64,000 bases of DNA, from the NCBI RefSeq assembly GCF_037892425.1, contig NZ_JBBKTT010000001.1, forward strand, positions 2,294,001 to 2,358,000, written 5' to 3'. This stretch comes from Lacibacter sp. H375 (lineage in GTDB: Bacteria; Bacteroidota; Bacteroidia; Chitinophagales; Chitinophagaceae). The first letter of the stretch is position 1. Each line of letters begins with the position of its first letter. The notes beneath the pieces were generated by a model. The model saw only the letters and a list, made by a program, of their open reading frames with translations, searched no databases and was not told the origin of the DNA. Of the stretch, positions 3,652 through 36,434 are shown piece by piece. Position numbers and translations under genes: made by a program.

Positions 3652-5097
3652 ATGAGTGAGATGCTCAATACACTGGAGCAAACGGCCCTGAGTGAGTACA
3701 AATATGGTTGGGTAACCGACATTGAAGCCGACGAGGCGCCTCCCGGACTTAGCGAAGACATTGTGCGTTTCATCAGCGCCAAAAAGAAAGAACCCGAGTG
3801 GATGCTCGAATGGCGACTCAAAGCCTACCGCCATTGGTTAAAAATGACCGAGCCGGAATGGGCGAATGTGAAATACCCAAAGGTTGATTACAATTCCATT
3901 AAATATTACAGCGCTCCCAAGCAAAAGAAAACACTCAACAGTTTAGATGAGGTAGACCCTGAATTGCGGGCTACGTTTGAAAAGCTGGGTATTTCGCTCG
4001 ATGAACAAAAGCGTTTGAGCAATGTGGCGGTGGATGCGGTGATCGATTCGGTTTCCATTGCAACAACATTTAAAAAAGAACTTGCTGAGCTCGGTATCAT
4101 TTTCTGCAGCATGAGCGAAGCGGTGCAGGAACATCCCGAACTGATCAAAAAATGGTTGGGCTCGGTTGTGCCGATGACTGATAATTATTTTTCTGCTTTA
4201 AATAGCGCTGTGTTCAGCGATGGTAGTTTTTGCTACATTCCAAAAGGTGTAAAAAGTCCAATGGAGCTAAGCACTTACTTCCGCATCAACGCAGAAAACA
4301 CCGGACAGTTTGAACGTACATTGATCGTTGCCGAAGAAGGCAGTTATGTAAGTTATCTCGAAGGTTGTACAGCGCCTATGCGTGATGAAAATCAATTGCA
4401 TGCTGCGGTGGTTGAAATTGTAGCACTTGATAATGCTGAAGTAAAATATTCAACAGTACAGAACTGGTACCCCGGCGATAAAGATGGGAAAGGCGGTATC
4501 TACAACTTTGTTACGAAGCGTGGTATTTGCGCAGGTGTAAATTCAAAGATCAGCTGGACCCAGGTTGAAACCGGATCTGCTGTTACATGGAAATATCCTT
4601 CAGTAATATTAAAAGGTGATAACAGCCAGGGTGAATTTTATTCGGTTGCTGTTACCAACAATCATCAGCAAGCCGATACAGGAACGAAGATGATGCACAT
4701 TGGTAAGAACACAAGAAGCCGAATTGTATCGAAAGGTATTTCTGCAGGTTTCAGTCAAAACTCTTATCGTGGTTTGGTGCAGGTGGGTAAGAACGCTGTT
4801 AACGCAAGAAACTTTTCACAGTGTGATAGTTTGTTGCTTGGCGATAAATGCGGTGCACACACCTTCCCTTACATTGAAGTAAAGAACAGCACTGCTCAGG
4901 TAGAGCATGAAGCCACCACTTCTAAAATTGGTGAAGACCAGATTTTCTATTGCAATCAACGTGGTCTCGATACTGAAACGGCAGTTGCATTGATCATTAA
5001 TGGTTTTGCCAAAGAAGTGATGAATCAATTGCCGATGGAGTTTGCTGTGGAAGCACAGAAACTATTGGCGATCTCATTAGAAGGAAGTGTGGGGTAA
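3652..5097 (+). CDS. sufB: Fe-S cluster assembly scaffold SufB
   Basis: The 481-residue protein is full length for SufB. It has the beta-helix core typical of the SufB/SufD family, including [28 protein letters not shown] and the C-terminal segment [21 protein letters not shown]. SufB forms the SufBC2D scaffold on which Fe-S clusters are built from persulfide sulfur delivered by SufS/SufE. It is the first gene of the cluster, 47 bases after the candidate promoter. Its TAA stop forms part of the first 8-base-periodic inverted repeat. Confidence 0.98.
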
Positions 5098-5215
5098 CCA
5101 CAGAGACACGGAGGCACAGAGAAAAAAATGTTGCTTCCATTATAAACTAAAGCACATTAAAAACGAATAAATCACATAGGTCAGAAAAAAGCTCTGCGTC
5201 TCTGAGCCTCTGTGG
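5098..5215. repeat. 8-base-periodic inverted repeat, site A (sufB-sufC gap)
   Basis: Left arm 5098-5121 is three 8-base units, CCACAGAG, ACACGGAG and GCACAGAG. Right arm 5192-5215 is CTCTGCGT, CTCTGAGC and CTCTGTGG, its inverted counterpart. The 70-base loop has no ORF. The left arm starts directly at the sufB stop codon and the right arm ends 16 bases before the sufC start. Same family as sites B, C and D. Confidence 0.85.
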
Positions 5216-5231
5216 TGAAAAATCAAAGTAT

Positions 5232-5996
5232 ATGTTATCAATCAAAAATTTACAGGCAAGGATTGAAGAGAAGGAAATCTTAAAAGGTATCAATCTTGAT
5301 ATTAAACCAGGTGAAGTACATGCGATCATGGGTCCAAACGGTAGTGGTAAATCAACCTTGGCTTCTGTGTTAGCTGGTCGTGCTGATTACGAAGTAACCG
5401 GCGGTAGTGTTGAGTTCTTGGGAAAAGATTTGTTAGAACTTTCTCCTGAAGATCGTGCACGTGAAGGTGTATTTCTTGCATTTCAATACCCGATTGAAAT
5501 TCCCGGTGTAAGCACTACCAACTTTGTAAAAACAGCCGTGAATGAAATACGCAAGTATCGTGGTGAAGAACCAATGGATGCAGTTGCTTTCCTAAAGTTG
5601 ATGAAAGAAAGAATGAAACTTGTGAATATTGACCAGGCATTGTTAAGCCGTTCATTGAACGAAGGTTTCAGTGGTGGTGAAAAGAAACGTAACGAAATTT
5701 TCCAGATGGCAATGCTTGAACCTAAGCTTGCGATCCTTGATGAAACAGATAGTGGTTTGGATATTGATGCTCTCCGCATTGTTGCAGAAGGTGTAAACAA
5801 ACTCAAATCAAAAGACAACGCTACATTGGTGATTACGCACTACCAACGCTTGCTCGATTATATCGTTCCTGATTATGTACACATTCTCTACAAAGGACGT
5901 ATTGTAAAAACAGGTGGTAAAGAATTAGCTTTGGAACTGGAAGAAAAAGGATACGATTTTATTAAGGAAGAATTGGGAGAAGAAGTAGAAGCGTAA
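5232..5996 (+). CDS. sufC: Fe-S assembly ATPase SufC
   Basis: The 254-residue ABC-type ATPase has Walker A GPNGSGKST (34-42), signature SGGEKKR (147-153), Walker B LAILDETDSGLD (166-177) and a switch histidine in VITHY. SufC binds SufB and SufD in the cytoplasm and powers the conformational change of the SufBC2D scaffold. Length is normal. It lies between repeat sites A and B, so the sufBCD genes probably form one transcript with hairpins in the gaps. Confidence 0.98.
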   Translation: MLSIKNLQARIEEKEILKGINLDIKPGEVHAIMGPNGSGKSTLASVLAGRADYEVTGGSVEFLGKDLLELSPEDRAREGVFLAFQYPIEIPGVSTTNFVKTAVNEIRKYRGEEPMDAVAFLKLMKERMKLVNIDQALLSRSLNEGFSGGEKKRNEIFQMAMLEPKLAILDETDSGLDIDALRIVAEGVNKLKSKDNATLVITHYQRLLDYIVPDYVHILYKGRIVKTGGKELALELEEKGYDFIKEELGEEVEA

Positions 5997-6001
5997 GTTA
6001 A

Positions 6002-6056
6002 CCACAGAGACACAGAGGCACAGAGCAAATTCTCTGCGAACTCCATTCCTCCGTGG
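6002..6056. repeat. 8-base-periodic inverted repeat, site B (sufC-sufD gap)
   Basis: Left arm 6002-6025 is CCACAGAG, ACACAGAG and GCACAGAG. The right arm 6032-6056 starts CTCTGCGA and ends CTCCGTGG with a diverged middle unit. Only six bases separate the arms, so the RNA would fold as a compact imperfect hairpin. The right arm ends 18 bases before the sufD start. It is the shortest, gene-less version of the element. Confidence 0.82.
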
Positions 6057-6074
6057 TAAAAAACAAAAATCAAG

Positions 6075-7382
6075 ATGTCAGAATTAAAAGAATTAATACA
6101 GGATAAGCTCAGCAAAGAATCATTCAGCGGTAATGGTTCATTAAAGGCGTTGAGTCAAAAAGGATTGGAACTGTTCAATGAACAAGGTATTCCAACGGTG
6201 AAGCACGAAGAGTGGAAGTACACACGTATTAGCGCTGTACTCAACAAGGATTTTTCTTATGCAGAAGGTGCAACAGCAATCACTGCAAAAGATGTGGAAG
6301 AGTTTCGTTTGCCGGGTCATGAAGCAGCCAATGAACTGGTATTTGTAAACGGCATTTATCATGCAGAACTTTCTAATATCCAATCATCTGTTGATGAGTT
6401 GGTGATTCTTCCGTTGAGTGAAGCAGTGAAAGGTGAATACAAAACAATCGTTGATGCAAATCTTGGTCATAGTGCCAGCTATCATAAAGATGGCATCAAT
6501 GCATTGAACAATGCATTTGCTTACCAGGGCTTATTTATTTCGGTAAGGAAAAATAAATCAGTAGAGCATCCATTGTATTGCTATTACATCAACGATGCAA
6601 GAACAGTGAATGTATTATCGCAACCACGCACGTTGATTCATGTGGCGGTGAATGCAGAGGTAACGATCGTGGAAGAAGAAGTAACTATTGGTACAAGTGA
6701 TTCATTCATTAACAAGATCTCTGAGATTGTTGTAGAAGAAAATGCACAGGTGCATTTATATAAAATTCAGAACGAAGACAGTCACAGCAGTTGTGTAAAA
6801 ACAACACATGTGCGTCAGGTAGGAGTGAGCAAGGTAAACTCAGTAACCATTACACTCAATGGTGGTGTTATCCGTAACAACCTCAATTTTATTTTAGAAG
6901 CACCGGGTTGTGAAAGCAATATGTATGGTTTGTATTGCGTGAAGGGTGATACCCATGTCGACAATCATACCATCGTTGATAACAAAATGCCTAACAGTTT
7001 AAGCAATGAGCTGTACAAAGGCATTATTGATGAAAATGCAACGGCGGTATTCAATGGTAAGATTTTTGTTCGCCAGGATGCACAAAAGACAAACGCATAT
7101 CAAAGCAATAAGAATATTTTATTGAGTGATACTGCAACAGTGAACACCAAACCACAGCTGGAAATTTTTGCAGATGATGTAAAGTGCTCACACGGTTGTA
7201 CCATTGGCCGACTGGATGATGAAGCATTGTTTTATCTGCAATCAAGAGGTATTGGTGATAAAGCTGCAAAGGCTTTACTACTGCATGCATTCGCCATTGA
7301 GGTTTTGGAGAAGATTGAACTGGAGCCGATCCGTCAGTACGTCGATCAGATCATTTCTGAGCGTTTGGATTTTGAAATATAG
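6075..7382 (+). CDS. sufD: Fe-S assembly scaffold subunit SufD
   Basis: The 435-residue SufB/SufD-family protein carries the C-terminal hallmark CSHGCTIGRLDDEALFYLQS and the N-terminal EEWKYTRIS segment typical of SufD. It pairs with SufB in the SufBC2D complex and is needed for iron acquisition by the scaffold. It follows sufC by 78 bases, most of which is repeat B. The stop codon is followed after seven bases by the left arm of repeat C. Confidence 0.97.
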   Translation: MSELKELIQDKLSKESFSGNGSLKALSQKGLELFNEQGIPTVKHEEWKYTRISAVLNKDFSYAEGATAITAKDVEEFRLPGHEAANELVFVNGIYHAELSNIQSSVDELVILPLSEAVKGEYKTIVDANLGHSASYHKDGINALNNAFAYQGLFISVRKNKSVEHPLYCYYINDARTVNVLSQPRTLIHVAVNAEVTIVEEEVTIGTSDSFINKISEIVVEENAQVHLYKIQNEDSHSSCVKTTHVRQVGVSKVNSVTITLNGGVIRNNLNFILEAPGCESNMYGLYCVKGDTHVDNHTIVDNKMPNSLSNELYKGIIDENATAVFNGKIFVRQDAQKTNAYQSNKNILLSDTATVNTKPQLEIFADDVKCSHGCTIGRLDDEALFYLQSRGIGDKAAKALLLHAFAIEVLEKIELEPIRQYVDQIISERLDFEI

Positions 7383-7389
7383 TTACTAA

Positions 7390-7824
7390 CCACAGAGACA
7401 CCAAGACACGGAGATGAATACAAACTAATACAGTTTGAATAGTATTTCCGGAGCGATTGTAGATTGCTCAATTCGGGTTCATAGAGAATTAGGTCCTGGG
7501 TTGCTTGAAAGTGTTTATGAGGTTTGTTTGATGAAGGAATTAATAAGCGAAGGATTGACAGTAAGAAGGCAGGTGGCGTTACCTGTTTTCTACAAAGGCG
7601 AGAATATTGGACTGGATTTTAAAATTGATTTATTGGTAGAAGAGGAGGTGATTGTTGAGTTGAAAACAGTTGATAATATTCTTCCGGTTCATGAAGCACA
7701 ATTACTGACTTATTTGAAATTGTCTGAAAAGCGTTTAGGTCTTTTAATAAATTTTAATGTTAAACTTTTAAAGGATGGCATCAAGAGAATGGTTTTCTGA
7801 CTCTGTGTCTCTGCGCCTCCGTGG
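7390..7824 (+). mobile_element. putative GxxExxY element bounded by 8-base-periodic inverted repeats (site C)
   Basis: Left arm 7390-7413 is CCACAGAG, ACACCAAG and ACACGGAG. Right arm 7801-7824 is CTCTGTGT, CTCTGCGC and CTCCGTGG. An ATG at 7414 abuts the left arm and the GxxExxY stop codon TGA (7798-7800) abuts the right arm, so the reading frame fills the interval exactly. The unit separates sufD from sufS, which are normally adjacent. I infer an inserted element; no target-site duplication is evident. The arms match sites A, B and D nearby, which lack the gene. Confidence 0.6.
7435..7800 (+). CDS. GxxExxY protein (PD-(D/E)XK-like), copy 1
   Basis: The 121-residue frame starts at TTG and contains GPGLLESVYE, the family-defining GxxExxY motif, then a PD-(D/E)XK-like core: KIDLLV (acidic), VELKT (E-x-K) and the following HEAQLLTYLK. 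The function of this family is unknown; a nuclease fold is suggested by the motif. In the same frame an ATG at 7414 begins MNTN and then meets TAA at 7426-7428, so either TTG 7435 is the true start or the gene has an early nonsense change. It sits inside inverted repeats within the suf operon and has no obvious role in Fe-S assembly. A paralogue lies at 35997. Confidence 0.8.
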   Translation: MNSISGAIVDCSIRVHRELGPGLLESVYEVCLMKELISEGLTVRRQVALPVFYKGENIGLDFKIDLLVEEEVIVELKTVDNILPVHEAQLLTYLKLSEKRLGLLINFNVKLLKDGIKRMVF

Positions 7825-7832
7825 TAAAATAT

Positions 7833-9074
7833 ATGTCAACAACAGCTTTACATATTGCGTTTGATGTAGACCAGGTAAGAAGGCACTTCCCGATATTGAA
7901 GCGTGAGGTAAAAGGAAAGCCCTTGGTTTATTTTGATAATGCAGCCACTACACAGAAACCTGTTGAAGTGATCGATGCATTAACAAGCTACTATCAATAT
8001 TTTAATGCAAATATCCACCGTGGTATTCACTCACTAGCTGAAGAAGCAACTGCAGCTTACGAAGCAACAAGAGATACGGTGCAACAATTCATTAATGCCA
8101 GGCAACGTGAAGAAATTATTTTCACCAGAGGTGTAACTGAAAGCATTAACCTCGTTGCATACACGTGGGCACGTACAAATCTGAAAGCTGGTGATGAGAT
8201 TATGATCAGTGGTATGGAGCATCACAGCAATATTGTTCCCTGGCAGTTGATTGCTGAAATGACGGGTGCAACGTTGAAAGTAATTCCTGTTGACGATAAT
8301 GGTGAATTGATGATGGATGAATTTCACAAACTGCTGAGCGAAAAAGTGAAGCTGGTTTCTGTGGTGCATGCATCCAATTCATTAGGAACAATCAATCCTG
8401 TAAAAGAAATTATTGATGCAGCACATAAGGTTGGTGCAATTGTGATGCTGGATGGTGCACAGTCAACCGTGCATTTGGATATTGATGTGCAGGAACTCGA
8501 TTGCGATTTCTTTGCCATCAGTTCACACAAAGTATATGGTCCCACTGGAATTGGTGTGTTGTATGGTAAAAGAGCATTGCTGGAAGCCATGCCGCCGTTC
8601 ATGGGTGGTGGTGAAATGATCAAAGATGTAACGTTTGAAAAAACAACCTGGAACGAATTGCCTTATAAGTTCGAAGCAGGTACACCCAATATTGCAGATA
8701 CTGTTGCATTGAAAGCTGCGATTGATTTTGTTCAACGCATCGGCAAGAAACAGATCCGGTTGCACGAAGAAGAACTGTTACGATATGCAACGGAAGAATT
8801 GCAAAGTATAGATGGTATCCGTTTAATTGGACAGGCAAAGCAAAAAGTAAGTGTTGCGTCATTTGTAGTGGAAGGTGTTCATCCGCAGGATTTAGGTATT
8901 CTGTTGGATAATCAAGGTGTAGCAGTGCGCACCGGTCACCATTGTACACAGCCATTAATGAACCGCTTTGGTATTCCCGGCACTACAAGAGCAAGTTTTG
9001 CGATGTATAATACCAAAGATGAAATTGATGTAATGATTGCAGGTTTACATAAAGCAATTAAGTTATTAAGATGA
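7833..9074 (+). CDS. sufS: cysteine desulfurase SufS
   Basis: The 413-residue PLP enzyme of the class V aminotransferase family has the FDNAATTQKP segment, PLP lysine in SSHKVYGP (K233) and catalytic cysteine in RTGHHC (C371). It removes sulfur from cysteine and passes persulfide to SufE. ATG 7833 is chosen over the GTG at 7821, which lies inside the repeat arm. The gene starts nine bases after the right arm of site C and overlaps sufE by four bases, indicating translational coupling. Confidence 0.97.
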   Translation: MSTTALHIAFDVDQVRRHFPILKREVKGKPLVYFDNAATTQKPVEVIDALTSYYQYFNANIHRGIHSLAEEATAAYEATRDTVQQFINARQREEIIFTRGVTESINLVAYTWARTNLKAGDEIMISGMEHHSNIVPWQLIAEMTGATLKVIPVDDNGELMMDEFHKLLSEKVKLVSVVHASNSLGTINPVKEIIDAAHKVGAIVMLDGAQSTVHLDIDVQELDCDFFAISSHKVYGPTGIGVLYGKRALLEAMPPFMGGGEMIKDVTFEKTTWNELPYKFEAGTPNIADTVALKAAIDFVQRIGKKQIRLHEEELLRYATEELQSIDGIRLIGQAKQKVSVASFVVEGVHPQDLGILLDNQGVAVRTGHHCTQPLMNRFGIPGTTRASFAMYNTKDEIDVMIAGLHKAIKLLR

Positions 9075-9514
9075 GTGAAGTGAAATCAATAGCAGAAATA
9101 GAAGAAGAAATAGTTGATGATTTTTCCCTGTTTGACACATGGGATGAGAAGTATGAATACATCATCGATATGGGCAAGAAGTTGAAACCATTGGAAGACG
9201 AGCATAAGAAAGACGAGAACAAAATAAAAGGTTGTCAGAGCACAGTATGGATGGTGAGTGAGTTCAAAGATGGCAAAGTGGTTTACCGTGCAGAAAGTGA
9301 TGCGGTGATTGTAAAAGGTTTGGTGAGTTTGCTCATTCGTGTATTGAGCGGACATGCCCCGAAAGAGATCATTGATGCAAAACTTGATTTTATTGATAAG
9401 ATCGGTATGAAGCAACACCTGGCGCAGACAAGAAGTAATGGTTTGCTGAGCATGGTGAAACAAATGAAATTAGATGCAACAGTTTATTTAGCACAACAAG
9501 CAAGTAAGAACTGA
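9071..9514 (+). CDS. sufE: sulfur acceptor protein SufE
   Basis: The 147-residue SufE-family protein has the conserved KGCQSTVW loop, with C55 as the persulfide acceptor. It takes sulfur from SufS and delivers it to SufB. The start overlaps the sufS stop (ATGA) and its own stop overlaps the next start by one base, so sufS, sufE and the sufT-like gene are tightly coupled. No repeat element interrupts these two junctions. Confidence 0.96.
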   Translation: MSEVKSIAEIEEEIVDDFSLFDTWDEKYEYIIDMGKKLKPLEDEHKKDENKIKGCQSTVWMVSEFKDGKVVYRAESDAVIVKGLVSLLIRVLSGHAPKEIIDAKLDFIDKIGMKQHLAQTRSNGLLSMVKQMKLDATVYLAQQASKN

Positions 9515-9831
9515 TGAGTTTAAACAAAGAAGATATCAAAGAAAAGATCATCGAGAAACTGCAAACTGTATTTGATCCCGAGTTGCCGGTGAATATTTAT
9601 GATCTTGGACTGATCTATAATATCGACATCAATGATAAGGGTTATGCGCAGATCACAATGACATTGACAGCTCCGAGTTGTCCTGCTGCACAATCATTAC
9701 CTGTTGAAGTTGATCAGAAAGTAAGAGAAGTAGAAGGTGTAACAGATGCAAATGTGATGATCACCTGGACACCGAAGTGGGAGAAGAGTATGATGAGCGA
9801 AGTGGCAGCATTGGAATTAGGATTTATGTAA
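9514..9831 (+). CDS. SUF-associated DUF59/MIP18 family protein (SufT-like)
   Basis: This 105-residue protein is a DUF59/MIP18 domain: FDPELPVNIYDLGLIY, then MTLTAPSCPAAQSLP with a conserved cysteine, then WTPKWEKSMMSE. Members near suf genes act in Fe-S cluster maturation or transfer to apoproteins. It overlaps sufE by one base. Naming it sufT is reasonable from context but the classical SufT fusion region is absent, so I leave the symbol empty. Confidence 0.92.
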   Translation: MSLNKEDIKEKIIEKLQTVFDPELPVNIYDLGLIYNIDINDKGYAQITMTLTAPSCPAAQSLPVEVDQKVREVEGVTDANVMITWTPKWEKSMMSEVAALELGFM

Positions 9832-9838
9832 TGACTTG

Positions 9839-9858
9839 CTCCTGTCTGAAGACAGGAG
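9839..9858. repeat. perfect short hairpin in sufT-brx gap
   Basis: CTCCTGTC, loop TGAA, GACAGGAG: an eight-base-pair perfect stem. It is followed by A-rich, not T-rich, sequence on the plus strand, so it is not a standard terminator for the suf genes. It may be an mRNA stability hairpin or a dispersed repeat. Confidence 0.6.
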
Positions 9859-9875
9859 AATAAAAAAATATTATT

Positions 9876-10427
9876 ATGGCAATGATTTCATTAGATAGTT
9901 TAATGGGCAATGAAGGCCCCAGCTATCCCGAACAAATAGCAGCACCTTACCGCAAGGAATTGGTGGATGCAGGTTTTGAACAAATGATGACCGTGGAAGA
10001 TGTAGAGAAAGTACTGTCAGGTAATCCCGGCAAAAGTATTCTTGTAGTATTGAACAGTGTATGTGGTTGCAGTGCAAGAGTGAGCCGACCCGGTGCGTTA
10101 CTCAGCTTTTTTAATCATGTTGTGCCAGATGTAAAAGCAACCTTGTTTGCAGGCATGGAAAAAGAAGCGGTTGTGCATTTCCGTGAGAAATACCTTAACA
10201 GTGTTACACCTTCTTCGCCCAATGTCCTGTTGTTGAAAGACGGAAAGGTATTGTTGCACCTGCAACGTCACCAGATCGAAACAACAGATGCAGGAACAAT
10301 TGCTGATGCATTGATCACTGCTTACAACGAGCATTGCACAAAGCAATCAACCGAAACAGAGCGTGAAGAGTTAAGAACCTATTTCAAAAATTTATACCAG
10401 GTAGATCCATTAGCAACACAAGCATAA
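9876..10427 (+). CDS. BrxA/BrxB family bacilliredoxin-like protein
   Basis: The 183-residue protein belongs to the YphP/YqiW (BrxA/BrxB) family: LNSVCGCSARVSRPGA carries the CGC active site (C63, C65), and SPNVLLLKDGKVLLHLQRH follows. In Firmicutes these remove bacillithiol from S-thiolated proteins. The C-terminal 40 residues extend beyond the core. Its place inside the suf cluster suggests protection or regeneration of thiols on Fe-S assembly proteins (inference). The start may be M1 or M3. Repeat site D follows six bases after its stop codon. Confidence 0.9.
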   Translation: MAMISLDSLMGNEGPSYPEQIAAPYRKELVDAGFEQMMTVEDVEKVLSGNPGKSILVVLNSVCGCSARVSRPGALLSFFNHVVPDVKATLFAGMEKEAVVHFREKYLNSVTPSSPNVLLLKDGKVLLHLQRHQIETTDAGTIADALITAYNEHCTKQSTETEREELRTYFKNLYQVDPLATQA

Positions 10428-10433
10428 GAATAA

Positions 10434-10563
10434 CCACAGAGACGCAGGGACACAGGGAAGTGGTTATTATTCGAAGGTTTTATAAATAATAAACAGAGCA
10501 AATTCATCTTTAAAAACCAAACATAAAGACATTAGAAACTCCGTGTTCTCTGTGTCTCCGTGG
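10434..10563. repeat. 8-base-periodic inverted repeat, site D (brx-rrf2 gap)
   Basis: Left arm 10434-10457 is CCACAGAG, ACGCAGGG and ACACAGGG. The right arm 10539-10563 is CTCCGTGT, an extra T, CTCTGTGT and CTCCGTGG. The 81-base loop has no ORF. The right arm ends 13 bases before the Rrf2 start codon, the same placement as at sites A, B and C. Confidence 0.82.
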
Positions 10564-10576
10564 TAAAATCAAAAGC

Positions 10577-11053
10577 ATGAAAATTACTTCATCAGAAGAG
10601 TACGGTATCAGGATCCTCATCCGCATTGCATCGGCTAATCCCGTTGAAGGGCTGAGTATTCCGCAGTTGAGTGAAGCAGAGAAGCTGACAGAACCACATG
10701 TGGCAAAGATCTGCCGCACGCTGCGAATGGAAGGCTTCATCAACAGTACGCCCGGTTACAAAGGTGGTTATGTGTTGGCGAAACCTGCTGAGCAGATCGT
10801 CATCAACGATGTGTTGAAAGCATTGGGTGGTATGTTGTTCGATCAACAGTTTTGTGATACACATACAGGCCTCGGACGTTTGTGTACCAACTCGGTTGAC
10901 TGCAGCACACGTTCCTTATGGAAAATGATTCAGTACACGCTCGATAATCTTCTCAATAAATTAACGCTGAAAGATTTGATGGTAAATGAAAAGGAAGTGG
11001 AGTTGAAACTAGAAGCAATACTGCAGCGTAATGTTGAAGAGTTGTTGAAGTAA
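10577..11053 (+). CDS. Rrf2 family transcriptional regulator (IscR-like)
   Basis: The 158-residue protein starts MKITSSEEYGIRIL, a typical Rrf2 winged-helix N-terminus with recognition segment HVAKICRTLRMEGFINSTPG and wing GYKGGYVL. Three cysteines, C93, C103 and C109, lie where IscR and related regulators bind an Fe-S cluster. Being last in the suf cluster, it probably senses Fe-S status and controls sufB transcription, perhaps through the direct repeat at 3572-3616. Cluster binding is inferred, not shown. Confidence 0.92.
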   Translation: MKITSSEEYGIRILIRIASANPVEGLSIPQLSEAEKLTEPHVAKICRTLRMEGFINSTPGYKGGYVLAKPAEQIVINDVLKALGGMLFDQQFCDTHTGLGRLCTNSVDCSTRSLWKMIQYTLDNLLNKLTLKDLMVNEKEVELKLEAILQRNVEELLK

Positions 11054-15946: not shown

Positions 15947-16405
15947 ATGAAAAAAGCACTTCCTTATCTATTACTCATTTTATTGCTGCTTGCTGCATTG
16001 ATGCTCCGTCGTTGCAACAACACGGATAATGCAAGCGATAATCAAAAAACCAAAGACCGTACAGACGATACAAAACGTGAAGAAGCAAAAACGGACAACC
16101 ATAAATCAAATCTTGATGTCTTTCGTGATCCGTCGTCGGAATTTTATTTCACCAAGCATGCACGCTGCAGAATGAAGTGTCGTCACATCACACAGGAAGA
16201 AGTAAAAGAAATTGTGCAGAAAGCTGAGGTTAATTATAAGAAAAGTGAACTGGATGCAGCACAAGGTCCGAAGTATGCGTTGGAAGGATACACGTCGAGA
16301 GACAATCAACATGTACGTATCATTGTGGCACCGAAGCAACGGCATTTAACAATTGTAACGGTGATTGACCTGGATGAAGAGTGGGCATGTCCGAGTTGTA
16401 AGTAG
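15947..16405 (+). CDS. membrane-anchored DUF4258 protein
   Basis: The 152-residue protein has one N-terminal membrane segment (YLLLILLLLAALML), a charged linker rich in K, D and T, and a C-terminal DUF4258 domain: FYFTKHARCRMKCRHITQEE, then VRIIVAPKQRHLTIVTVIDL. Cysteines near the C-terminus read CPSCK. DUF4258 domains resemble small RelE/BrnT-type folds and are sometimes toxin-like; the membrane anchor makes a classic toxin role less likely here. Function unknown. It follows the SNF2 gene by 68 bases. Confidence 0.8.
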   Translation: MKKALPYLLLILLLLAALMLRRCNNTDNASDNQKTKDRTDDTKREEAKTDNHKSNLDVFRDPSSEFYFTKHARCRMKCRHITQEEVKEIVQKAEVNYKKSELDAAQGPKYALEGYTSRDNQHVRIIVAPKQRHLTIVTVIDLDEEWACPSCK

Positions 16406-16472
16406 AAGCCCACTTCGTAGCGGAACTAAAGTCAAAATGAAAGTGTTACTGACGAATAAAAACAAACAGCTC

Positions 16473-16550
16473 GTCACCTCGACGCAGGAGAGGTCTCATA
16501 AATTGGAAACTATTTCAAACTTTTGAGATGTCTCCTGCGTCGACATGAGG
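16473..16550. repeat. inverted repeat upstream of plsC-like gene
   Basis: Arms CTCGACGCAGGAGAGGTCTC (about 16479-16498) and, inverted, GAGATGTCTCCTGCGTCGAC (about 16525-16544) enclose a loop of about 26 bases. The element ends 11 bases before the acyltransferase start codon and would fold into a long hairpin in its leader. It looks like a dispersed intergenic repeat of this lineage. Confidence 0.75.
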
Positions 16551-16561
16551 GGCTTCGGATT

Positions 16562-34806: not shown

Positions 34807-35904
34807 ATGATTGGACACTTTTTCTCGAAATATGATCCGTCGCAAAATAGTAAGTCGAAGTTTGAGCAGTTGCTTGATCTGTTCACGCAACTGTTGACTT
34901 ATACCAGTGGCGATGTAACGGAAGCAATGGATTGGTTAAACCAACTCGATCGCAAATTTCAACTCACGAATGATGAGTATGGTATGGGTGATTTTATTGA
35001 AGAACTGAAAGAGAAAGGCTATCTCGAAGAGAACCAGATCACCGGTCAGTTTAATATTACAGCAAAAACAGAACAGACCATACGTAAACAGTCGCTTGAA
35101 GAAATATTCGGTAAACTGAAGAAAACCAAGCAAGGGAATCATCAAACATTTAAACCGGGTATGGGAGATGAGATCAATCCTGAAACAAGACCGTTTCAGT
35201 TTGGTGACACATTAGAGCAGATCGATTTCACCAACTCCATCCGTAATGCACAGATCAATCATGGCATTGACAGTTTTATGATGCGTGAAGATGACCTGGA
35301 GATTCGTGAAACGGATTTCAAAACACAAACATCAACAGTGTTGATGATTGATATATCACACTCGATGATCCTGTATGGTGAAGACCGTATTACACCTGCA
35401 AAGAAAGTGGCGATGGCTTTGAGTGAACTCATTCAAACAAAATATCCGAAGGATACACTGGATATTGTAGTATTTGGTAATGATGCATGGACGATTGAAG
35501 TGAAAGATCTTCCGTATTTACAAGTAGGCCCATATCATACCAACACTGTTGCGGGTTTGGAACTGGCGATGGAAATTCTTCGTCGAAGAAAAAATCCCAA
35601 CAAGCAGATATTCATGATCACTGATGGGAAACCAACCTGTTTGAAGATCGGTAAGAAATATTATAAGAACAGTTTTGGCTTAGATCGGAAAGTAGTGAAC
35701 CGTTGTATCAACCTTGCAGCACAATGTAAAAAATTGAAAATACCTATCACAACATTTATGATAGCAACCGATCCTTATCTGCAAAAGTTTGTACAGGAGT
35801 TTACTGAAACCAATCATGGTAAAGCTTTCTTTGCATCATTGGATAAACTAGGTGCATTTATTTTTAAGGATTTTGAAAGCGGCAAGCGAAAGACGGTGTA
35901 TTAG
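34807..35904 (+). CDS. VWA domain-containing protein
   Basis: The 365-residue cytoplasmic protein has a helical N-terminal region and a von Willebrand A domain with MIDAS motif DISHSM (about 181-186) and MITDGKP later, typical of CoxE/ChlD-like partners of MoxR/ChlI AAA+ proteins. The AAA+ partner is probably the gene at 36424. ATG 34807 (MIGHFFSKYDP) is chosen; upstream frame is promoter-like DNA. Its stop codon is the first base group of the left inverted-repeat arm of the second GxxExxY unit. Confidence 0.87.
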   Translation: MIGHFFSKYDPSQNSKSKFEQLLDLFTQLLTYTSGDVTEAMDWLNQLDRKFQLTNDEYGMGDFIEELKEKGYLEENQITGQFNITAKTEQTIRKQSLEEIFGKLKKTKQGNHQTFKPGMGDEINPETRPFQFGDTLEQIDFTNSIRNAQINHGIDSFMMREDDLEIRETDFKTQTSTVLMIDISHSMILYGEDRITPAKKVAMALSELIQTKYPKDTLDIVVFGNDAWTIEVKDLPYLQVGPYHTNTVAGLELAMEILRRRKNPNKQIFMITDGKPTCLKIGKKYYKNSFGLDRKVVNRCINLAAQCKKLKIPITTFMIATDPYLQKFVQEFTETNHGKAFFASLDKLGAFIFKDFESGKRKTVY

Positions 35905-36434
35905 TCTGAACCATGATTTGGGTAGATTTTCTGATTTAGCAGAAATGGGATGGAGTTGAATATTGACTTAATGTTTCATATACAACAAAGCAGCTTATGG
36001 AAAAACCTGATTATAAGTTTAAAGAAATAACTGAGAAAATCATAGGTGCTTCAATGAAAGTACATGCTGCACTTGGCAACGGTTTTCAAGAATTGATTTA
36101 TCAACGAGCAATGGAAATTGAAATGGAAGAAATGGGCGTTCATTTTAAACGTGAATTTGAAATGCCTATTTATTATAAGGGAAGAGAAATCGGGCTACGA
36201 AGAGTTGATTTTTTTGTAGAAGAGAAAATAATGGTAGAGTTAAAAGCAATGATACAATTGGAAAATGTTCACTTGGCACAAGCAAAGAATTATCTGGAAG
36301 CATATAATATGCAAGTTGGCCTGCTGATAAATTTCGGAAGTGCGAGCCTTCAATTTAAGCGGCTTGAGAACAATAAGTTTAGATCAAACAATAATCTATT
36401 AAATCAATAAATCCACCCAAATCATGGTTCAGAC
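35904..36434 (+). mobile_element. putative GxxExxY element bounded by 9-base-periodic inverted repeats
   Basis: Left arm 35904-35949 reads GTCTGAACCA then 9-base units TGATTTGGG, TAGATTTTC, TGATTTAGC, AGAAATGGG. The right arm 36389-36434, read on the minus strand, is GTCTGAACCA then TGATTTGGG, TGGATTTAT, TGATTTAAT, AGATTATTG. The outer 25 bases differ at one position. The GxxExxY stop codon and the start codon of the downstream AAA+ gene both fall inside the right arm. The unit splits a VWA-AAA+ pair. Mobility is inferred. Confidence 0.6.
35997..36410 (+). CDS. GxxExxY protein (PD-(D/E)XK-like), copy 2
   Basis: The 137-residue protein has GNGFQELIYQ, in which GFQELIY is the GxxExxY motif, then the nuclease-like core RRVDFFVEE, MVELKA (E-x-K) and LAQAKNYLEAYN. 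It is only distantly similar to copy 1 at 7435 but shares length and motif order. Family function is unknown. The last residues (NNNLLNQ) are encoded by the right inverted-repeat arm, so element and gene are fused at the 3' end. The ATG start is intact here. Confidence 0.9.
   Translation: MEKPDYKFKEITEKIIGASMKVHAALGNGFQELIYQRAMEIEMEEMGVHFKREFEMPIYYKGREIGLRRVDFFVEEKIMVELKAMIQLENVHLAQAKNYLEAYNMQVGLLINFGSASLQFKRLENNKFRSNNNLLNQ

Follow-up and report, generated by a model that had tools for sequence, protein, structure and literature searches.

What does a small gene of the GxxExxY family do between sufD (6075-7382) and sufS of Lacibacter sp. H375, and why is it enclosed by inverted repeats built of short periodic units? 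An earlier note on the window (the whole stretch of DNA analyzed, 64,000 nucleotides) had placed the gene at this junction, where we also see it, and had proposed that the protein and its terminal repeats form a minimal mobile element. We compared the locus with GxxExxY genes in related and distant genomes, and with other small proteins that are associated with repeats. We know of no function that has been assigned to GxxExxY proteins, which are widespread, or to the equally widespread four-helix-bundle proteins that enter the comparison below.

Both repeats ("arms") at the sufD-sufS junction are real. The two 25-nt arms were 76% complementary and formed the longest inverted pair in the list for positions 6800-8400. 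The left arm reads CCACAGAG-ACACCAAG-ACACGGAG, and the right arm, as its reverse complement, CCACGGAG-GCGCAGAG-ACACAGAG. The three 8-base units first described are present in each arm, but CRCNRAG describes them better than the RCRCAGAG given at that time; three CRCNRAG units 8-9 nt apart are the usual arm of this lineage. With up to three mismatches allowed, there were 10 sites for ACCACAGAGACACAGAG in the window, compared to 0.08 expected. The gene had also been described as fitting exactly between the arms. An ATG (7414-7416) lies directly 3' of the left arm and the right arm lies directly 3' of the TGA stop codon (7798-7800), so that both codons do touch the arms, but the frame of the ATG is closed four codons on, and the open frame in this genome runs from the TTG at 7435 to the TGA (Table 1). 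In the orthologues from genomes G012, G009 and G004, the frame from the arm-adjoining ATG stays open past the position of that early stop; the G012 orthologue has an in-frame stop further inside the gene.

Table 1. GxxExxY elements and gene-less hairpins in the window
Feature	Position	Strand	Basis
Gene-less CCACAGAG hairpin between sufB and sufC	5097-5216	.	
Gene-less CCACAGAG hairpin between sufC and sufD; weaker pairing, partner score 10	6001-6057	.	
Left arm, A and three 8-nt CRCNRAG units	7389-7413	+	inverted-repeat search, pattern scan
ATG adjoining the left arm, then stop at 7426-7428	7414-7434	+	sequence, orthologues
ORF of GxxExxY putative PD-(D/E)XK nuclease, TTG start, 121 aa	7435-7800	+	TIGR04256, 152.1 bits; PF13366, 147.4 bits
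Right arm, three units in opposite orientation, adjoining stop codon	7801-7825	-	sequence, inverted-repeat search, pattern scan
Gene-less CCACAGAG hairpin between ORFs 9876-10427 and 10577-11053	10433-10564	.	
Left arm of second element, GTCTGAACCATGATTTGGGT family	35904-35940	+	
Second GxxExxY gene, 137 aa	35997-36410	+	
Right arm of second element, holding start codon (36424) of downstream ORF	36402-36434	-	

The protein encoded between the arms is a putative PD-(D/E)XK nuclease with intact predicted active-site residues, in agreement with the family assignment made earlier. It matched TIGR04256 (GxxExxY) over positions 2-116 of 116 and PF13366 (PDDEXK_3) over positions 2-117 of 117, against cut-offs of 35 and 22 bits. 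PF13366 was its sole match in the Pfam search, which found no HUH/Y1 transposase domain in it. Residues E25, Y28, D65, E75, K77 and Q89 were invariant and Y93 nearly so among 15 aligned sequences; Q89 and Y93 match QxxxY, which we take to be a signature of RecB/Cas4-like PD-(D/E)XK proteins. An AlphaFold2 model (mean pLDDT 96.2) had no Foldseek match at E 1e-3 among solved structures. Its best hit was a weak match to SSO0001 (4ic1; E 2.6e-3, probability 1.00, TMq 0.56, rmsd 10.3), presumably a Cas4, followed by alkaline exonuclease and lambda exonuclease, with tRNA splicing endonucleases lower in the ranking. The model thus weakly suggests a Cas4/lambda-exonuclease-like fold.

A check set in advance was whether such arms are common around GxxExxY genes. 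The TIGR04256 family was present in 30 of 39 related genomes, with one to ten matches, some of them broken, in each of the 14 genomes of the genus. Roughly the best-scoring 92 of the 113 matches listed, some of which are fragments of one gene, were analyzed, less one (L047) that had a short flank. At each of the remaining 91 loci, the 220 nt to the left of the domain were aligned locally with the reverse complement of the 220 nt to the right, and a score of at least 18 was counted as an inverted repeat; windows shifted within the same loci served as controls. Inverted repeats were found around 64 of the 91 genes, compared to 5 of 354 shifted windows. Some of the 27 genes under the threshold had short arms. 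At one locus (L041) the alignment scored a chance match within sufD; the true arms of that locus were visible in the sufD-sufS comparison. The distant sample consisted of 80 loci, chosen not at random but as the top matches in a search with an alignment headed by the protein of the window. Most are metagenome bins, possibly misassigned, and by record titles they include Acidobacteria, Verrucomicrobia, Chloroflexota, Planctomycetota, cyanobacteria and two archaeal bins. There were inverted repeats around 60 of the 77 usable genes (L203, L238 and L240 were left out) and in 29 of 425 shifted windows; one archaeal locus passed (L234, score 19) and the other failed (L202, score 13). Arms are therefore common around these genes in both samples. 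At five of the distant loci (L193, L201, L225, L239 and L259), a complete hairpin was present on either side of the gene, like paired REPs.

The periodic make-up of the arms was also shared. Mirrored tandem CRCNRAG units, in forward orientation in the left flank and reversed in the right one, were found at 55 of 77 distant loci (0 of 285 controls) and at 19 of 91 related loci (0 of 354 controls). Arms of class A had three units in 87 of 150 cases, two in 41 and four in 22, and the commonest unit spacing was 8 nt (140 of 281). In the autocorrelation of the arms, lags 8 and 9 were prominent, with z of 10.6 and 9.5 in the relatives and 14.9 and 13.3 in the distant loci. Lag 2 was raised as well (z 6.3 and 16.4, respectively), which would be expected from the CAC/GAG make-up of the arms.

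The arm family was found to track the protein. Among 69 armed related loci, 2258 of the 2346 pairs had non-homologous outer flanks, and in these pairs protein identity was correlated with arm similarity (Mantel r 0.393; maximum of 2000 permutations 0.116). On a protein tree built from few columns and having many weak forks, and with 14 armed loci of no class omitted, the four arm classes required 6 changes, compared to a mean of 27.0 and a minimum of 24 after shuffling (n = 120). The result was 6 changes against 25.0 for the relatives alone (n = 59), and 5 against 11.9 (lowest 9) with one locus per site (n = 28). Adding the 14 classless loci as a fifth class gave 18 changes, a raw count with no shuffle control. 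Two loci (L034 and L037) entered the Mantel and tree runs with faulty coordinates; they form faulty long-branch rows in the tree, but fell below the arm threshold in those runs and so lie outside the counts. These comparisons support the view that protein and arms behave as one unit: even where the sites are unlinked, the family of the arms goes with the lineage of the protein.

The two arms of an element also matched each other. Among 44 loci with at least three units on each side, picked for the motif irrespective of how their inverted repeats scored, unit spacing was the same in both arms at 42, compared to 11.6 expected from cross pairs. Arm likeness was 17.8 within elements and 10.8 across elements (maximum of 2000 permutations 12.95). 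This matching is what would be expected if a folded hairpin were the working form, or if one arm were copied from the other. Class A arm differences comprised 725 transversions beside 440 transitions, so many of them are not pairing-neutral.

Individual sites were also compared. Three TIGR04256 genes are present in the own genome, all between inverted repeats, of three different families (CCACAGAG, GTCTGAACCATGATTTGGGT and CTAAGAGTTT). When the sufD-sufS junction was inspected by eye in the 14 genus genomes, five had a GxxExxY gene, two had nothing recognizable, and seven had gene-less hairpins, remnants or unclear sequence. At nine loci of other genera there was no GxxExxY-like motif within 1500 nt after sufD. 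The order sufD-GxxExxY-sufS, whose conservation across distant relatives without repeats would have spoken against an element, is thus not conserved. In the relatives, the sufB-sufC, sufC-sufD and sufD-sufS junctions were often occupied by hairpins of other families. Pairwise dN/dS among the five sufD-sufS copies was 0.03-0.14, many of the dS values being close to 1 or higher; that of sufD was 0.03-0.10 (four genomes), and the divergence of the GxxExxY copies runs with that of sufD. Judged by this divergence, the sufD-sufS copy is an old resident under constraint and not a recent insertion, a pattern that fits maintained function as well as mobility.

At the site of the second element, genomes G000 and G013 share a gene with GTCTGAAC arms (97 of 114 residues identical). 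Five others (G001, G002, G008, G010 and G011) have a different GxxExxY gene with GCCGGGAAG-type arms, identical to that of G000 at 35-41 of 111-112 residues, and G003 and G009 are gene-less but keep CATGGTTCAGAC, where the right arm ends and the next gene starts. Since gene and arms differ together here, the site does not supply the arms. The first codons of the ORF downstream of the second element, like its start codon, lie inside the right arm, and the same bases are present in the gene-less G003 and G009. The third gene is present at its site in G000 and G001; hairpins of the CCACAAAG/CCACGAAG type are found instead in G003, G004 and G009, and the rest have other or unresolved sequence. By eye, none of the sites compared offered a clean empty site with a target duplication, such as the earlier note had suggested looking for. 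The intergenic DNA differs throughout and is not cleanly interrupted, and classical cut-and-paste insertion is therefore unsupported; our guess is that repair-based copying into occupied intergenic sites fits better. Of the proposed minimal mobile element, then, the joining of protein and arms in one unit is supported by their co-variation, but clean insertion is not, and the sufD-sufS copy is old. Carriage by phages was rejected, since none of 50,697 phage records matched the family at E 1e-5. Of 72,556 plasmid records eight matched; both of the two plasmid loci inspected were also armed.

Related hairpins were found without a gene. The three in the window (Table 1) are all within 3 kb of the sufD-sufS GxxExxY gene. 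In the own genome there were 35 sites for ACCACAGAGACACAGAG at up to three mismatches, compared to 18 for a reversed control pattern, and 22 compared to 2 at up to two mismatches. Among the 30 of the 35 sites that were inspected, there were seven hairpins without a gene whose partner arm scored at least 15, in addition to the weaker one between sufC and sufD. Four CCACAGAG elements lie in 5.5 kb around the suf operon (5097-10564), and the 22 sites at up to two mismatches are spread over 5 Mb. The window also contains a strong short-loop inverted repeat of another type (16468-16554, score 21), just after ORF 15947-16405.

In the genus, the number of CCACAGAG sites was 14-22 (mean 17.8) in the five genomes with the sufD-sufS gene and 0-22 (mean 6.7) in the nine without it, one of which (G001) had 22. 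Among distant host genomes, the count drawing on 30 of the 80 loci, the CACAGAG pattern was at least twice as frequent as its reversed control in 18 of 29 and below the control in three; examples are 173+189 against 5+13, 64+73 against 9+5, and 62+64 against 7+5. Sites of the GTCTGAAC type were present in 23 of the 39 related genomes. Genome G018 had 13 of them and no TIGR04256 match. G017 had a dispersed GTCTGAAC family of approximately 150 bp (L357-L368), whose interior is conserved and which has a GAGTCGTTC/GAACGACTC palindrome inside, and neither of its two GxxExxY genes has GTCTGAAC arms. The idea that hairpins strictly need a cognate gene is not upheld in these two genomes. In clusters of G001 and G013 (L378, L379 and L380), CRCNRAG units were present at many gene junctions. 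Six ORFs of the G001 cluster were tested, and one is a sodium:solute symporter and five have glycoside hydrolase domains. In several ORFs (14131, 15492 and 18823 of L379), the hairpin arms are read in frame and give a Lys/Arg-rich and then hydrophobic N-terminus that by eye resembles a signal peptide.

Two other small proteins were put through the same arm test. The RAYT sample consisted of 24 loci of 50 Y1_Tnp matches, of which six were skipped as short. Inverted repeats were found at 13 of the remaining 18 RAYT genes, compared to 3 of 72 controls, and none of the 18 had tandem CRCNRAG units on either side. Recovery of the RAYT arms indicates that the test detects a known protein-repeat partnership. 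RAYT genes of the genus (L327-L354) are accompanied by compact palindromes such as AGCTCCGTAGGAGC. Y1_Tnp matches were present in 13 of 14 genus genomes, and there were none in the own genome (completeness 100). RAYT is therefore an unlikely mover of the hairpins, both for this absence and because its arms differ. The four-helix-bundle (TIGR02436) proteins, which we take to be relatives of S23, were represented by 34 loci (L063-L067 and L128-L156), a part of all matches. Without L140 and L152, inverted repeats were present at 25 of 32, compared to 1 of 128 controls. Their arms repeated sharply every 7 nt (z was 22.0 at lag 7 and 17.6 at lag 14) and had no mirrored CRCNRAG units (0 of 32). Three unrelated small proteins, GxxExxY, RAYT and four-helix-bundle, are each associated with their own kind of arm in one bacterial group.

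The explanation that we favor, with somewhat better than even confidence, is a minimal two-part DNA element in which a small PD-(D/E)XK nuclease lies between inverted arms, takes their folded hairpin as its substrate, and spreads hairpins by way of repair. The arm hairpin would be the cognate substrate, formed as a cruciform or in single-stranded DNA at replication forks, and the nuclease would cut or trim it. Host repair would then copy the arms, with or without the gene, into other intergenic places. We infer these steps of recognition, cutting or trimming, and copying. Hairpins without a gene would stand to the element as REPINs do to RAYT elements, being copies that are not autonomous. A copy of the element could persist for long at one site, kept there by purifying selection, while its hairpins are gained and lost.

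Several other explanations were weighed against this element. The arms could act in RNA, as a hairpin with a role in processing, stability or autoregulation (compare the 23S rRNA intervening sequences with S23), with the GxxExxY protein binding or cutting RNA or profiting from a protected mRNA. The location of elements inside the suf operon, the folding as RNA of gene-less hairpins in and near this operon at -18.4 to -38.2 kcal/mol (raw values with no shuffle control), and the inverted repeats around the genes of the presumed S23 relatives are all in keeping with this idea. We nevertheless consider it unlikely, given that DNA exonucleases and Cas4 come closest among solved folds, with tRNA splicing endonucleases ranking lower, that the many transversions in class A arms are not pairing-neutral, and that dispersal of related gene-less hairpins would need DNA copying anyway. 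The gene could instead be cargo, the hairpins being moved by a RAYT or IS transposase. Y1_Tnp is present in most of the genus, and G017 and G018 have hairpins with no cognate GxxExxY gene, but cargo would not be expected to track the arm family, RAYT arms are compact and lack tandem CRCNRAG, and the complete own genome is without a Y1_Tnp match in a search that covered Y1 transposases only; we regard cargo as very unlikely.

A distinctly unlikely reading is that of a nuclease useful to the host, perhaps in defense, that spreads by gene transfer and is kept at hairpin-bearing intergenic sites, where the arms would be terminators or homology for recombination. It would account for purifying selection at sufD-sufS and for different lineages in the same intergenic site, and there is a parallel in the independent insertion of rpnC at one place, which the accessible text of PMC5350276 names in a section heading. 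It is at odds with the change of arm family together with the protein at a single site, which indicates that arms are not supplied by the site, and with the similar units around the gene in distant phyla. Chance coincidence of a gene with a simple-sequence repeat might be entertained for units so short and degenerate, but it is refuted by the shuffles and shifted windows and has a negligible probability.

The favored two-part element resembles several known systems without coinciding with any of them. MITEs are short gene-less elements with inverted repeats, and the ~150-bp family in G017 is like them; the difference is that no target duplication was recognized and that GxxExxY arms track a nuclease and not a known transposase. 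Its logic is that of RAYT, REP and REPIN elements (PMC2817692, Nunvar 2010; Bertels and Rainey 2011, PMC3116915), which in the accessible parts of those papers share a gene between inverted, dispersed palindromic repeats, co-variation and gene-less copies. RAYT/REP has an HUH/Y1 enzyme and compact palindromes, whereas the GxxExxY protein is of the PD-(D/E)XK type and its arms have periodic units 8-9 nt apart. RAYT genes are said to be "always" flanked by REPs (PMC2817692, accessible text), whereas GxxExxY genes had arms in most and not in every case. The analogy drawn in the earlier note, similar logic in an unrelated protein family, thus holds up, since the arms co-vary and the HUH domain is lacking. 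Rpn/transposase_31 proteins (PF04754), as far as the accessible text of PMC5350276 and PMC10327210 goes, are likewise PD-(D/E)XK proteins with a proposed role in DNA mobility and with independent insertions at one place. They belong to another Pfam family, and RpnA is described in the same text as having little, if any, sequence specificity. Intervening sequences of 23S rRNA with an S23 ORF also have a short ORF between stem-forming inverted repeats and are termed selfish, but in the accessible account (PMC4990558) they encode another protein, lie within rRNA and are excised by RNase III. The TAACTGA heptamers of Beggiatoaceae, Cyanobacteria and Bacteroidetes are similarly short, periodic, mostly intergenic and patchy over phyla (PMC4679880, accessible text). 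They differ in being direct repeats and are nearer to the 7-nt arms of the four-helix-bundle genes; terms for four-helix or S23 proteins were absent from the accessible text of that paper. Four-helix genes appear as phage-region entries in the accessible part of PMC5524665. A literature search on a possible link to cyanobacterial STRR heptamers gave nothing.

The type of element is called new here because the defining enzyme of RAYT/REP was looked for and was absent; it combines RAYT/REP logic with a different predicted enzyme and is, on sequence evidence, a candidate mobile element. By title, a literature search found no account of a partnership between GxxExxY proteins and arms, a passage that names GxxExxY was incidental, and the term PDDEXK_3 and four arm strings were absent from it, with most subscription papers outside its coverage. 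These genomes commonly contain periodic intergenic hairpins, which have so far had no explanation; the element may have peppered genomes with them. We give an even chance to a broader proposal, in which GxxExxY nucleases are the enzymes of an unrecognized class of hairpin-spreading elements that extends over bacterial phyla and perhaps into archaea, with each lineage recognizing its own ~8-nt units in a folded hairpin. Four-helix-bundle proteins (presumably S23/Avd-like) would run a parallel 7-nt system, making, with RAYT/REP, three unrelated partnerships in one genus. If the partnership of protein and arms is real, a new type of enzyme would be added to the few proteins that seed genomes with short hairpins, and one class of the repeats that are scattered through genomes of several phyla would be explained. 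Both the GxxExxY and the four-helix-bundle families would gain a testable substrate, and each GxxExxY protein would be predicted to prefer its own arm family.
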